A DNA stretch of 64,000 nucleotides from NCBI GenBank assembly GCA_002803225.1, contig NXFV01001126.1:42588-106587 (forward strand). The letters run 5' to 3'. The translations under genes and the position numbers were made by a program. Under the pieces are notes generated by a model. That model saw only the letters and a program-made list of their open reading frames with translations. It had not been told where the DNA came from and did not search any database. Each line of letters begins with the position of its first letter. The stretch's first letter is position 1. Source of the stretch: Gamarada debralockiae. Its lineage: Eukaryota > Ascomycota > Leotiomycetes > Helotiales > Hyphodiscaceae. Shown here one piece after another: positions 1,077-8,400 of this stretch.

Positions 1077-2361
1077 TTAAGTAGCAATCTTAACATCCAA
1101 TCTCTGGAAGCCTCCCTTGTTCGCAACCTCCTGCTGTAGCGCAACCATCCTCTTCTGATCACTAGTAGGATCAGCAGAGTCACCCTCCAACTTCCATTCC
1201 AAGAACTGGTTGGTGTAGTTGGGCTTGAAGTCCTCATTCAAAATACCAAGGCGCTTTCCATACTTGGTGACTTTCTCCCAGTCACGTTGAACGTTCTTGA
1301 GGTCCTTGGAGAAGTAAGCGTATGAGCGCTCGAAGATCTTGCTGTTGACAGCAGAAGCCATCTGAGGCTTGATGTCGATGTACGTCTTGTAGGCTTCGGC
1401 GGGGGAAGCAAGGACGTAGTCCATGGCTTTCTTGACGGCGATCATGAATTTGCGAACTTTCTCGGAGTTGGAGATCATGAACGCGTCGTTGGCTGGTATT
1501 GGGTCAGCAAAGCGCGGGAGTAGGAGCGACAAACGTACCGATATACAGGATGGAACAGAAGCAGCAGCATCCAAGTTCAGCAAGCACATCGATACGGAGC
1601 ATCTGAACATCAGAGCGAGGACGACCCTGCCCAGCGAGCCACTCCTCTAATTCCACCATCTGGACGTTCTCAAGACCGATACCTGCATCGATACTGCCGT
1701 CAATGATGGCCTTTGAGACGTTCATTCCGCATCGGACAGCCTCGTAATCGGTGGGCTTCATGCCGTAATACTTGGTCAATTCGTCGATTTGGATCTGCGG
1801 CACCAATCAGTCAGCACTTCCACCCAATCCACTATGAATCAAGGTATACCTTTCCGAATTCCCCAACATATCCAATCTTCTTCCCTTTTAAACTACGGAA
1901 ATCGGTTGTGATGCCACTGTCTTTCAAGTACACGACACCAGTGAAGGGCTCATCGAGGAGGGATCCAATAGATGTGACGGCAAAGCCACGAGCTTTAGCT
2001 GCGAGGGTATGAATCATAGCTTTGAAGCCCATGTCGACCTTGCCGGAACCGATGATTTCGGTAACATCTGTCGAACACGGATCAGTACTGCTCGGAGTTG
2101 AGACTGCAAGAAGGTGAGAAGAGACGGACCAGAGGGATCGTTAGGCTCGAGAAGAGCGACTTTGATGCCTTCATCCTGGAAATATCCCAATTTCTGGGCA
2201 AGGTAAACGGGGGCGTGGTAGGGCGTTGCGTGCCTGTTTTCATTGCCATCAATTTCTGTTCCTTAAACCTCCTTCCCTCAACCATAATCGTCTGTGGATA
2301 TGTTCAGAGGTGTGATGATGCCTTACCAGTTCATCAAGAAAGTAATCTTATCAGTAGACAT
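1077..2361 (-). CDS. thi5: 4-amino-5-hydroxymethyl-2-methylpyrimidine phosphate synthase (THI5/NMT1)
   Basis: This enzyme makes the pyrimidine half of thiamine (HMP-P). In the yeast family it uses its own active-site histidine and PLP as substrates, so each molecule works once. I rebuilt five exons: 2361-2327, 2233-2130, 2067-1850, 1794-1539 and 1492-1077. They total 343 codons, 342 residues, the usual THI5 length. The protein begins [20 protein letters not shown], with W12 split across intron 1. It shows GYVGEFGK near the middle and the diagnostic iron-binding cysteine motif CCCFC within [14 protein letters not shown]. Intron 2 has a weak donor (GTCCGT), but the junction is fixed by [13 protein letters not shown]. 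The start is the only ATG that gives the conserved N-terminus. Expression is almost certainly thiamine-repressed through the riboswitch just upstream (2442-2603). The product name is firm. The single-turnover chemistry is family knowledge and not visible here. Confidence 0.97.
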
Positions 2362-2421
2362 CTTGCTCTCATTCTTCAAAGTTCAAACTTCCGTTCAAAA
2401 GCTAAGCAGAGGTTAGGATTT

Positions 2422-2617
2422 CTGGACGGGAAGGGAAGGGGAAGCATGTCCTTTCGCTAGAATTATCTAGATCAAGTTCATTTGTACGGTATATTCTCAG
2501 ATCCTAACTCTCTCATTTGATATTTCATTCTCGATCCCTCAGTTAAGTTCGAGGAGCCGAGGCGAAACATCGAATGAGAGAGTAAGGAACACCCGTCATG
2601 CTTATTCTGCACGTTAC
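2422..2617 (-). other. Predicted 5' UTR intron enclosing the TPP aptamer
   Basis: A strong donor (AAG|GTAACG, intron base 1 at 2617) lies 14 nt upstream of the aptamer. A pyrimidine-rich acceptor (CCCTTCCCGTCCAG, ending at 2422) lies just downstream of it. Splicing would remove the whole 196-nt segment and join the leader to the last 60 nt before the THI5 ATG. This is the arrangement expected for a splicing-control riboswitch. Other donors further upstream may also be used. I could not decide between isoforms from sequence alone. Confidence 0.65.
2442..2603 (-). promoter_or_regulatory. TPP riboswitch aptamer in the THI5 5' UTR
   Basis: On the minus strand this stretch has the thiamine pyrophosphate aptamer signature. 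The pyrimidine-binding CTGAGA lies at 2500-2495, followed by TACCGT. Then comes GAACTTGATCTAGATAATTC at about 2479-2460, then TAGCGAAAGGACATG. Helices are visible. P1 is 7 bp (AAGCATG 2603-2597 with CATGCTT 2448-2442). P2 is about 4 bp (ACGG 2596-2593 with CCGT 2489-2486). P3 is long, 15 positions with one mismatch (2587-2573 with 2517-2503), and has a large loop. P5 is CTAG/CTAG around ATAATT, a compensated version of the bacterial CTGG/CCAG stem. An extended P3 is typical of fungal THI4/NMT1 riboswitches. It sits about 80 nt before the THI5 start codon, inside a predicted 5' UTR intron. By analogy with Neurospora NMT1 it should control alternative splicing, not bacterial-style termination. 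Confidence 0.95.
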
Positions 2618-3205
2618 CTTGAACTGAAGATGATTCATGGTGGAAGACGGTATGCTTTTGTTCTGTGCAAACATACTGCTTGTTCGTTTCTTCGTAGTTT
2701 CCCAAATTAAATTATCAAAATCAGACAAAGGATCAATCAATCGTGTTGATTGAGGTGAAGAGGCAAGCTCTGAAGGATAGGTCAATCCTTAAATCTCAAT
2801 ACGGAGGCTCTCGGCCCAACCCCACCAGCTAGTAGATGGCTTGATGAGCTGTTTTCTCACCAATGATGGGTTTCATATGCAGCATGTCGTTACGATGCAG
2901 ATGCATTTGTTCTTCCTCGCTCCATACCGCACAGCTACCGAGGCTAGCTCCGCGGTAGGTTTGAAGCGGCTAAACGCTAATGCTGGGTCACCCCTCCATG
3001 ATGCCTCCGGTTGTGGTCTCCGATATGTGAAATTTCCACGGAGGGGTTATCATGTGAATATAGCATGATTTGGTGGGAGCAGTGCTGATTGCTGTGCGCC
3101 TGGATTATTGGCGAAAGAACTCTATTTCATGAGGTAGTAGAAACTGGTATCAGAATTACGCAAACGCCTGTCTCTGCTATGGAATCTCGCGCCGTCCCAG
3201 GCTGT
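2604..3205. other. THI5 leader and promoter; tail of the MFS gene
   Basis: The minus strand from about 2785 to 2604 looks like the transcribed THI5 leader. It contains upstream ATGs at 2785 and 2674 in one frame and another at 2705. The rest, up to the stop codon of the minus-strand transporter at 3206, shows no gene and should contain the THI5 promoter and the transporter 3' UTR. I see no unambiguous TATA element. Confidence 0.5.
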
Positions 3206-4892
3206 TCAAGGCTTCCAAGCAATGCCCATTTTCCTCCTCAACCTCGTCACTCTTCCTTCCTCTAAGTCTCCTCGACCTTCCTCAACCCTACTTTCACTCC
3301 CTTCCTCCCTCTCCCTCCTTGAATTCTCCAGTCCCTGTTTCTTGAACCCTCCTGGTAAGATACACCACAACGCCAAAATCAGTACCAGCAGTACCAATAC
3401 GATGGGTTGAAGGACTTGTACACCCTTCGCTTGCGCGATTGCTCCAACCGCGAAAGGTAGCACTGCCGCTCCACCACCCCCAAAAGCTGCCGCAAAGCCA
3501 ATCGCACTGACATGCAACCTACTCGGCAACAATTTCGTCGCAACAACAATGGCCGCAGGAAAAAGCGGACCTAGGAAGAAGCCCAACCAGCCCGCAAATA
3601 CCGCGCTCGCAACAAAATTCGGGATAAGCCAAAAGCACAACTCGAGCCCCATGCAAATAAGCAAGTACCCCGCTATCGCAATCTTCTCCCCCAGCTTCCC
3701 TGTCACGAACCCAAGAATGACACGGCCGAAAGTGAGGCCAAGCCAGAAACCAGTAACGACGAGACCGGAGGCGAATTCTTCCCCACGACGCACACGTAGC
3801 ATGAATGTTACGAGCCAGCCTCCCAGCGAGACCTCGACGCCGACGTAGCAGAGGAGGAAGAAGGCGCAGATCCAGGTTATGGGGTTCTTGAGCGTCTCTT
3901 TTGTGCGGGAGTGGCCGGAGTTGGTTTGGGTGATTGGGGTTTTCGCGCGGTGGAAGGCGCCGGTTGATTTGTAGAATGTTGCGATACAGAGGGCGAGTTC
4001 GACGACTGCGAGGCCGACCTGATAGTAAGTTAGGTTATGTTGGTGTTTACAAAGTGGGGATGGGAAGCGAAAGGGGTCAGGGGTGTCGACAAGACAAGAT
4101 AGGAGCTTACCATGAGGTAGTAGAAATTGTACCAAGGTAAGTTGCCTCTAGTTACCATGCTTGTTGCGACCAAAGGACTGATCGTAGCACCTAGTCCGTA
4201 TGCTCCGTGTAAAAAGCCCAGTAGCTCATTAGCATTTTGCATGTTCCCAATCCAAGCATTCCATCCTCCGTCCTCCAATCCGTTTCCAAATCCAGCCAGC
4301 AGAAAGATGACGGGAAGAACGGGGTATGGAGGATGAACGCATGTCACCACATATGCAACGATCTTGCATGAAGGGGCAATGACAGCTACCCCCCGCTGGC
4401 CCCATCGCATGTGTATTTTGTTGTTCAATACAGCAGCTGCGCTGTAGCCTACGAAGGGGGCTAGGAACACCAGCGAGATGACTGTGTAGTTGAGATTGTA
4501 GTAAGGTTCGAGCTAGATTTGTGATCAGCAAGTCGTGAATTGCCTAGGTAGAAGGGAGTGCTCACATATGGAATTAATGCCTACATATAAGTTAGCAAGA
4601 GATCATGTAGAATTCGAAAGCTGATTCGAAGATGAATGACACTTACTCCGTACGCAGCATCATTCATGCCCATGATAATGAAAGTGTAAAGTGTCGTCAA
4701 ATAACGATACATATTTATCCTTGGCTTGTTCCATATCTCCAACTCAGGAGTCTCCGTCACGGGACTCTGGGTGTCCTTCTCGCCTCCCCCACTTATGGCT
4801 TCGTTTGGCCCATCTTCAAGCGAAGACGAGGTGATGTCGTGTTTTAGGGGTTCTTTATCGCGAACATAATTCGGCTGCTGTTCAGGTTCCAT
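3206..4892 (-). CDS. Major facilitator superfamily transporter (BSC6/fucose-permease-like)
   Basis: A plasma-membrane-type secondary transporter with unknown substrate. Four exons (4892-4647, 4580-4566, 4512-4111, 4018-3206) give 492 codons, 491 residues. The second exon is only 15 nt and encodes ALIPY. It restores the conserved run NDAAYG-ALIPY-LEPYYNLNY at the end of TM1, so it is real. The protein has a charged disordered N-terminus (about 55 residues), about 12 hydrophobic segments, a central cytoplasmic loop rich in T/S/K, and a basic Arg/Glu-rich tail. The pattern matches the fungal MFS group annotated as bypass-of-stop-codon protein 6 and distant from sugar porters. The start ATG at 4892 is the first in frame. 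No neighbour suggests a substrate; closeness to THI5 may be chance, although thiamine-precursor transport cannot be excluded. Confidence 0.9.
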
Positions 4893-5499: not shown

Positions 5500-8400
5500 T
5501 CAGCAGGCTTTCTCCTCAAACTCTTTGACCAATCTCTGTAGATAGAATCTTCGAACGTCAGCCGGCAAGTTGTCAAAGGACCTGACAATTTTGGCGACAT
5601 CCTGTCTCCCTTTCTCATATGCTCGCAAATCTCTATTTCCATACACATCCTTTCCTGCTGCGTAACCCGATTGTAAGTTGCGGAAGAATACATTCACCGC
5701 AACACTCATGCCGGAGGTAGGTAATGCAGTGTGAAGCCACAGAGACGGCAAGAAGAGCACATCACCAGGGTTGAGTAATGCTTCATGCGGATGAGTATTG
5801 CCGGGGATTGGTGTTTGACCGTCAAACACATTGATGCTCGAGCTTGAGGCGCCAGCTTCGAATTCAAGATGCTTGACATCGGAGGGAGGGAAAAGGACAA
5901 GCCGTTTCTGACCCTTGACTTGGCATAGTACGTTTGCCATGACCTGATAAATGTCAGCGGAGATAATGGACACAGGATGCGAACTTACATCGTAATGAAG
6001 CCACATAATCACGGGTCCAGAAATGCGGAGAGGGCAGCTGTGAGCATTTTCTGTGATCAGTGCTAGCTCAGGTGGTAGTCGAAAGTCATTGGCAATAGAA
6101 GGGAAATCTCTTGAGATATCAGCTGGGAGCTCTGTAGGCTTTTCGGCAGACAAAGACCTCAAGTACAGCTTCTCGCCTGCGTCGACTTGGTCAATGAATT
6201 CCCTAAACGTCTTTGTTGAGTAGGCAAAGTTCTTCGACTGAAAATTCATGTGTTGTGCTGTTGCTTCGTGAACAATCACCTCTTACTGTCAGCATAGTGT
6301 ATCATTAAAACAAGCTATGTGAAGCTCACCTCTCGGTCAGCTCCGACATGCTCTCTGAGGTAGTTCGATGTCCAAAGATCAGTGCATGGGCCGAGGTCAA
6401 GCCCCTCCAGAATAATAGGCTTCGCTGACTGAAGAATTCGATCAAAGTCAATAGAGGAGCCGATCCGCGTTCTTGGTACGCTAGCCATGGAGTCCACTGA
6501 CACCGGGTGTGGCATTTCTACAGGGAGCTCTGCTGGTCTTGCAGCAGCCACCGTATGCATGAATCTCCAACAGCACTTCGGAGATTCAACTGGACTGATG
6601 ACTCCACCCTCCCCCGCGCCGTCCACTATCCGGAGTGTGTAGCAGCCACTGTTCCAGGATGTCCCGAACGAAAAACAAACTGCTGATCCGCCCATCAGAA
6701 CCAAACAACTGCCCGTGGATACGACTGATGATCCGATGAGCAGCGGTCGTGGAACGGAACTAGACCTTCTGGATAGGACGGCCCGAGAGACCTTGACTTG
6801 ACTGTCAATCAAGCAGATTTCATTCGACTCTTTGAGAATCTCATTTCTGCAAATGCCACCCACAACGAATGTGTTCCCTTGATGGTTGACAACATTTGCA
6901 CCGAAACGAGCAATAGTCATTGACAGGGTTTGCGAGCTGCTGGATGCTTTTGCGTAACGCTTGAATGTAATAATTGGTTTCTGAACGTTGAGGTCAACGC
7001 AATTTCTCAGAGCTTCCATGGGGTCCTGGAGCTGGTGGTTGCGCGAACCTAAAGTGCTTACCTGACCCGAAAGATTATGCAACTTCCATTCCCAGATATC
7101 CTCTAGCAACAGCGCATCATCTGACATTCCACCTGCCAGGAGACCGCTCCTTGATCCCGACGTATCTAGTGACCTTTCAGATGCTGTGAACGTTGCGCCG
7201 TGAGAAGGCGGCGGCTTTTCTCCTGGACCTTGGACACATTGCGTCCAACCCTGAGCTCTACTCCATATGTAGAAATCATTGCTTATGTCTCGTGAGTTGC
7301 TCTTCCCGGGAGCAATCAAAACATGGCCTTGGCCCAGATTCACGGCTCCATGGCGATATCGAGGATGGGGGAGATCATCTACCCGTTCCCAAATATCAAG
7401 CCATTTGTGATAGAGCCAACAATCTGCCAAAGCATTATCAGGCGATGTTCTGCCACCAACAAGCAGAGCTCCTGATTCTCCAATATCTGTTATTGTATGA
7501 CACATCCGACTCGATGGTGCAATAGAGGTTGATGGGGAGTTTGACGGCAAGACTCCCGGCAGGTCCGTGGCATAGACATCATAAGTACTCATCCTGGTAT
7601 TCAATCCCATTCCTGCGAAGATGCCTACTCTGCCTTGAGTTCGGTTCGAGCCCTTGAGTGGCAAGACTGCCCCAAATCTTCGACATCCTTGTGTTTTTGG
7701 ATTTTCGGAGTATGCCATCTCGAGCTCCACAGAATGGACAACATTTCCATTTCCAGAACCATTGTCTGGGCATGGAGGGCCTTCATTACCGAACTCACAA
7801 CCTTGCGTGGTTGCCGTGGTGTCTGCCACAAGCAGAAAATAATGGCAACCAAACAACGCAAATTCTTCCCATTCATCGAATGGCTCAAGAATGTCCAACA
7901 AAGTACGCTCTTGTGAGGTAATGAAATTCGAATCATTCCATAGCCGCCACAGATTGCGAGCCGAAGCCTTGCTCCAACCCAAACTTGTGAAGCGTTCCTC
8001 CTGGGCCAGCGTTGTTGGATATTTTTGAACGGCTCTTAAGGGAGTCTGTAACTTGCTGAAGTGTGCCATCATTGTTCGAGCAAAGGGATGTTCTATTCCA
8101 TCAGGGAGAAGCTGTTCCAAGAGACAAAAGCGAGCTGTATCGTCAGCGCTGAAGCCGCGTTTCGTGAGGGATTCTTACCATCAGAAAGTTTGCCTGCCCA
8201 CTCGATCAGAGCATCCGCCGCCTCAACATTCATGTAAGTGATTGAAACTTCGGCTGTGAGAAGGACCAAACAGTTTTCAATATCAATAGCACTTGCCAGT
8301 GTTTGGTTAAGGAGTTCGAGATCCCTCAAGTCGCATCCTAGTTGTAGGTACTGATCACTACGAAGTAGTATGCTTCCTTCCAAAACTTCCAGATTTGTCA

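Follow-up and report, generated by a model that had tools for sequence, protein, structure and literature searches.

Does the aptamer-like element in front of the THI5/NMT1 gene, on the minus strand of a 64-kb window (the whole stretch of DNA analysed, from a genome of 54.3 Mb in 1112 contigs), belong to a TPP riboswitch, and by which route would such a switch control the gene? The initial annotation had placed there an intact eukaryotic TPP aptamer enclosed in an intron of the THI5 leader and had named NMT1 of Neurospora as the model. For the THI5 leader the aptamer, two donor sequences, a uORF, a complementarity to the P4-P5 strand and the identity of the gene have been computed; TPP binding, a change of isoform and repression of THI5 are what we infer. 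The reading that we favor, with a probability of roughly 0.88, is that the leader is a fungal TPP riboswitch of Type I, with TPP governing the choice of the donor and a uORF bringing about repression. The coordinates of the features are collected in Table 1.

Table 1. Features of the THI5/NMT1 leader and gene, in positions of the window.
Feature	Position	Strand	Basis or remark
TPP aptamer, P1 to P5	2442..2603	minus	RF00059 match, MFE fold of the isolated segment, helix coordinates
Extended P3 hairpin	2503..2587	minus	RF00059 match, folding, helix coordinates
Ligand-binding core (P4, P5, UAAU, GCG)	2450..2480	minus	core scans of window and genome, helix coordinates
Putative distal donor S1, GTATGT	2671..2676	minus	sequence; use would remove the uORF start codon
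uORF start codon	2672..2674	minus	inside S1; kept only with use of S2 or intron retention
Putative proximal donor S2, GTAACG	2612..2617	minus	sequence
Candidate partner of the P4-P5 strand in the exon	2618..2637	minus	duplex energy, window scan of the leader
Acceptor AG of the initial annotation	2422..2423	minus	YTRAY absent over 40 nt
Likely branch site CTAAC (A at 2413) and acceptor CTTAG ending at 2402	2402..2416	minus	sequence
THI5/NMT1 coding region	1077..2361	minus	342 aa, five exons, start codon 2361; in silico splicing
THI5/NMT1 exons	2361-2327, 2233-2130, 2067-1850, 1794-1539, 1492-1077	minus	in silico splicing

The identity of the gene follows from Pfam NMT1, which matched the THI5 protein with 2.3e-74 (a hand-joined copy with one residue wrong was used). 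A protein search with a 66-aa exon piece found 122 proteins, nearly all of the 120 listed being short pieces of the NMT1 family. Upstream of THI5 and on the same strand lies a gene for an MFS-type transporter (window 3206-4470), and next along, also on the minus strand, one for a Cupin_8/JmjC-domain protein (window 5500-6279).

Judged by its sequence and predicted fold, the minus strand from 2603 to 2442 is a complete TPP aptamer of the eukaryotic type in the 5' leader of THI5/NMT1. The core TGAACTTGATCTAGATAATTCTAGCGAAAGG is found at 2480-2450 and CTGAGA at 2500-2495; P1 comprises 7 bp (2603-2597 with 2448-2442), and P3 has 14 standard pairs in its first 15 positions, after which it continues as a longer stem. 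The unconstrained MFE structure of the isolated segment 2604-2438 contains P1 with its 7 bp, P2 (ACGG/CCGU), the long P3, a P4 of 3 bp and P5 with the UAAU loop, which is the five-helix fold of a TPP aptamer with CUGAGA, the UAAU loop and GCG. P5 differs on both sides from that of two sister copies, reading CUAG/CUAG in THI5 vs. CUGG/CCAG in the sisters, which are identical there. Thus the motif, the core, the 7-bp P1, the 15-position P3 and the compensated P5, all of them named in the initial annotation, were recovered by position, by folding and by comparison with the sister copies. When the 32-nt core taken from the sister copies was searched for at up to 3 mismatches, the window gave one match and 100 shuffles gave none; in the whole genome the core pattern occurs in at least three places, the reversed control in none (only the best candidates were scored), and one of these places is in front of THI4, the other biosynthetic gene. 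Scans of viral and prokaryote collections for the exact core gave no matches. The folding z-score of 2600-2440 is −6.12, with none of 200 shuffles as good, a low energy which is due largely to P3. Matches of microRNA families on the P3 hairpin were far under their own cut-offs and are read as chance likeness to a long hairpin.

A search with the Rfam TPP family RF00059, which had been proposed as a check, gave a match on the minus strand at 2525-2432 with 35.4 bits and an E value of 5.9e-5 (permissive search, 1201 bases), but this score stays under the gathering score of 54.3 bits, which is a search cut-off and not a biological property. At the gathering level the Rfam search of the 64-kb window returned no family, the THI5 aptamer included; for this reason that search is no evidence on an aptamer at the MFS-type gene. 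The genome-wide RF00059 search, in which 49 of 1973 first-look candidates were scored, listed no second TPP match on the THI5 contig. The long P3 is probably the reason for the low score. The match begins within P3, so that the true 5' strands of P1 and P2 are not part of it. The score could also be taken to mean that the aptamer is degenerate and has lost its switching, which we regard as highly improbable, since the core and P1, P2, P3, P4 and P5 are all intact, P5 is compensated relative to the sister copies, and the copy in the THI4 leader is likewise under the cut-off. In Neurospora, according to PMC5997356, only two of three switches passed the threshold.

The initial annotation had framed the aptamer with strong splice sites, a donor at 2617 and an acceptor at 2422. 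A GT at 2617 and an AG at 2422 do exist, but the sequence does not bear out that they are strong and the right pair, as the donor reads GTAACG and 2422 lacks a nearby YTRAY. Further upstream, and not noticed before, lies a candidate distal donor at 2676 which encloses the ATG of a uORF (2674), so that use of S1 would delete this start codon and use of S2 would keep it. The donor consensus of Candida parapsilosis is GTATGT (PMC5997356), and we infer that GTATGT is a good donor in the THI5 leader as well. The leader has two candidate donors of which only the proximal one keeps the uORF, and the thiamine gene carries its aptamer within a putative intron of the 5' UTR.

As acceptor, 2402 is more likely than 2422, because CTAAC stands upstream of the AG at 2402 with its A 11 nt away, and YTRAY is absent within 40 nt of 2422. 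In all four coding introns of THI5 a branch-like A (YTRAY) precedes the final base of the intron by 11-16 nt, and the THI4 leader has CTAACCCAAGTTAG at the place matching the branch site and acceptor of THI5. The kept uORF (MFAQNKSIPSSTMNHLQFK...) would be 21 codons long with acceptor 2422; with acceptor 2402 it would have 29 codons, and 7 nt would separate its end from the start codon of THI5. A second uORF of 12 codons, which starts at the uATG at 2372 and overlaps the THI5 start codon, is common to all isoforms, a point that weighs against the favored reading.

From these parts the following course can be proposed. Without TPP the P4-P5 strand would pair with the exon segment just before donor 2617 and thus mask S2; splicing would run from donor 2676 to an acceptor near 2402, so that the aptamer would be lost together with the start codon of the uORF and THI5 would be translated. 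With TPP the aptamer would close and donor 2617 be freed, whereby the uORF would be retained and translation of THI5 repressed. The intron from 2617 to 2422 of the initial annotation would then belong to the isoform in which THI5 is repressed, and not to the one from which it is translated.

The initial annotation had left the pairing partner of the P4-P5 strand to be found; a candidate is the exon segment 2637-2618. The 20 nt before S2 of THI5 form with the 24-nt P4-P5 strand a duplex of −11.7 kcal/mol, an energy that 9 of 2000 pseudo-donors match (a sample of the 3024 that the window holds), and the corresponding segment at the proximal donor of THI4 one of −13.7 kcal/mol (15 of 2000 as good); these fractions are not blind, because the duplex tests were made after the complementarity had been seen by eye. 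When 227 overlapping 20-nt windows of the THI5 leader were scanned, the best (−11.8) was the pre-S2 window shifted by one base, the exact pre-S2 window came third, and the next distinct place reached −8.5. The THI4 leader has its two strongest separate places (−15.3 and −11.5) in a stretch that runs from 28 nt upstream to 3 nt downstream of the proximal donor, the window ending at the donor being ninth of 253. For a further aptamer copy, which belongs to a thi9-like permease gene, complementarity to the P4-P5 strand before the donor was looked for by duplex energy and none was found: the duplex has −6.7, which 775 of 2000 pseudo-donors equal, and its window is only 147th of 283. The strongest duplex of that gene, −14.4, lies 148 nt upstream of its donor, where the stop codon is, which indicates that such energies also occur elsewhere. 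The longest helix touching the donor has 5 bp in THI5 (reached by 350 of 2000 pseudo-donors) and 8 bp at the proximal donor of THI4 (28 of 2000). With the donor window set against the whole 3' strand of the aptamer, the share of 1000 shuffles that were as good was 7.7% for NMT1, 9.9% for THI4 and 82.1% for the thi9-like copy. This broad test is weak; the narrower test with the P4-P5 strand is convincing for NMT1 and THI4, and by it the P4-P5 strand is complementary to the proximal donor region.

The complementarity also bears on another mode of action, intron retention, in which the aptamer closed by TPP would block all splicing, S2 would not be used and the leader, rich in uAUGs, would stay untranslated. 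Nine uATGs do precede the THI5 start codon in the unspliced leader, and in Candida DUR31 thiamin is described to increase the unspliced RNA (PMC5997356). Intron retention, however, gives no reason for a complement beside S2, which NMT1 and THI4 both have, and we hold it to be unlikely.

Folding of the leader was compared with the two states of the preferred donor-choice mechanism. Forced into the aptamer state the leader reached −102.0 kcal/mol and in two S2-paired states −100.9 and −100.8 kcal/mol, a spread within 1.2 kcal/mol, which speaks for the mechanism. Against it, the MFE structure of the free leader (−106.7 kcal/mol) is none of these folds, S1 is predicted to be largely paired whether the leader is in the aptamer or the S2-paired state (unpaired probability 0.18 in each), and forcing the aptamer lifts the unpaired probability of S2 from 0.39 to no more than 0.50.

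In the genome-wide search with RF00059 at E ≤ 10, for which 49 of the 1973 first-look candidates were scored, TPP matches were found in at least four places, with 59.7 bits for the thi9-like permease gene, 35.4 for THI5, 33.0 for THI4 and 31.7 for a fourth place, so that only the thi9-like copy passes the cut-off. The fourth match (L004:1501-1606) is divergent and seems to lie inside an intron of a gene for a multi-pass membrane protein, two exons of which gave no family above the cut-off in Pfam and NCBIfam; our reading of the protein as a DUR31/urea-type transporter is unconfirmed. The thi9-like gene (L005:5926-7686) encodes an AA_permease_2 protein, several relatives of which are named 'Thiamine transporter thi9'; relatives named include those of Pseudogymnoascus, Claussenomyces and Eurotiales, which, as far as one gene can tell, indicates that the DNA comes from a filamentous ascomycete and probably from a leotiomycete. 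Its C-terminus aligns to the end with the closest relative and ends near those of nine others (10 aligned of 301 found). Between the stop codon and the start of the aptamer match (L001:1501-1609) there are about 150 nt, and a GTAAGT donor precedes P1 by 15 nt.

In plant THIC the TPP aptamer is laid out in the 3' UTR. Since the thi9-like copy has the same layout, TPP might act in the fungus on 3'-end processing or on splicing of the 3' UTR. A tentative and rather doubtful generalization is that one aptamer class is used here in three layouts, namely for splicing of the 5' leader (THI5, THI4), in a presumed intron (the unconfirmed transporter) and in a 3' UTR (thi9-like).

Riboswitches in thi9 orthologs have already been published (PMC5997356), and 3' UTR aptamers have been predicted in diatoms (PMC9544697). 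For fungi, the available text of PMC5882874 mentions a TPP copy in a 3' UTR only for a gene of Postia placenta annotated as eIF5B, and, this case aside, we found in the portions of literature covered by our search no mention of a 3' position for fungal thi9 aptamers. Among the relatives of the permease is one that bears the annotation 'translation initiation factor 5B, partial'. TPP riboswitches have been reported on eIF5B genes of Basidiomycota (PMC5882874), and these riboswitch-bearing genes may be models of neighbouring or fused permease genes. The biology of this kind of switch in THI4 or NMT1 leaders is already established; the thi9-like copy in the 3' UTR is the part most worth testing.

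The TPP riboswitch of NMT1/THI5 in Neurospora crassa was reportedly described by Cheah et al. in 2007. In Neurospora THI5 the second donor is masked without TPP and the uORFs are kept with TPP (PMC5997356); PMC7404189 agrees on this mechanism and adds a repression of a branch site upon TPP binding. Type I has been described with the same parts (Mukherjee et al., 2018, PMC5882874) and is given as the predominant mode (PMC11683625); riboswitch control of THI4 or NMT1 is stated to be ubiquitous in all classes of Ascomycota but three (PMC5882874), and in Botrytis under a compound, alternative 5' splice-site events were reported for thi4 and nmt1 (PMC11900860).

Within the genome studied here the THI4 leader (L003:1405-1618) resembles that of THI5 in the core, the extended P3, the complement before the proximal donor, the 3' end CTAAC...TTAG and a uORF. 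It differs from THI5 in that its complement is longer and unbroken (8 bp touching the donor) and that its distal donor is without confident identification.

The analogy with Neurospora NMT1 drawn in the initial annotation holds in the structural points examined: the gene is the same, the aptamer lies in a putative intron of its 5' UTR, and there are two candidate donors, a uORF and a P4-P5 partner beside the proximal donor. For Neurospora this likeness is drawn from published descriptions, for the THI5 leader from the sequence. The DNA letters thus suffice to recognize a fungal TPP switch with a long P3 and to show where its expression platform is likely to lie, even though such a switch misses the Rfam cut-off. 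With the fungal Type I riboswitches the THI5 leader shares the gene, the position and the logic, nothing essentially different having been found, and because its parts agree with those published, the THI5 switch would be a further case of an established kind.
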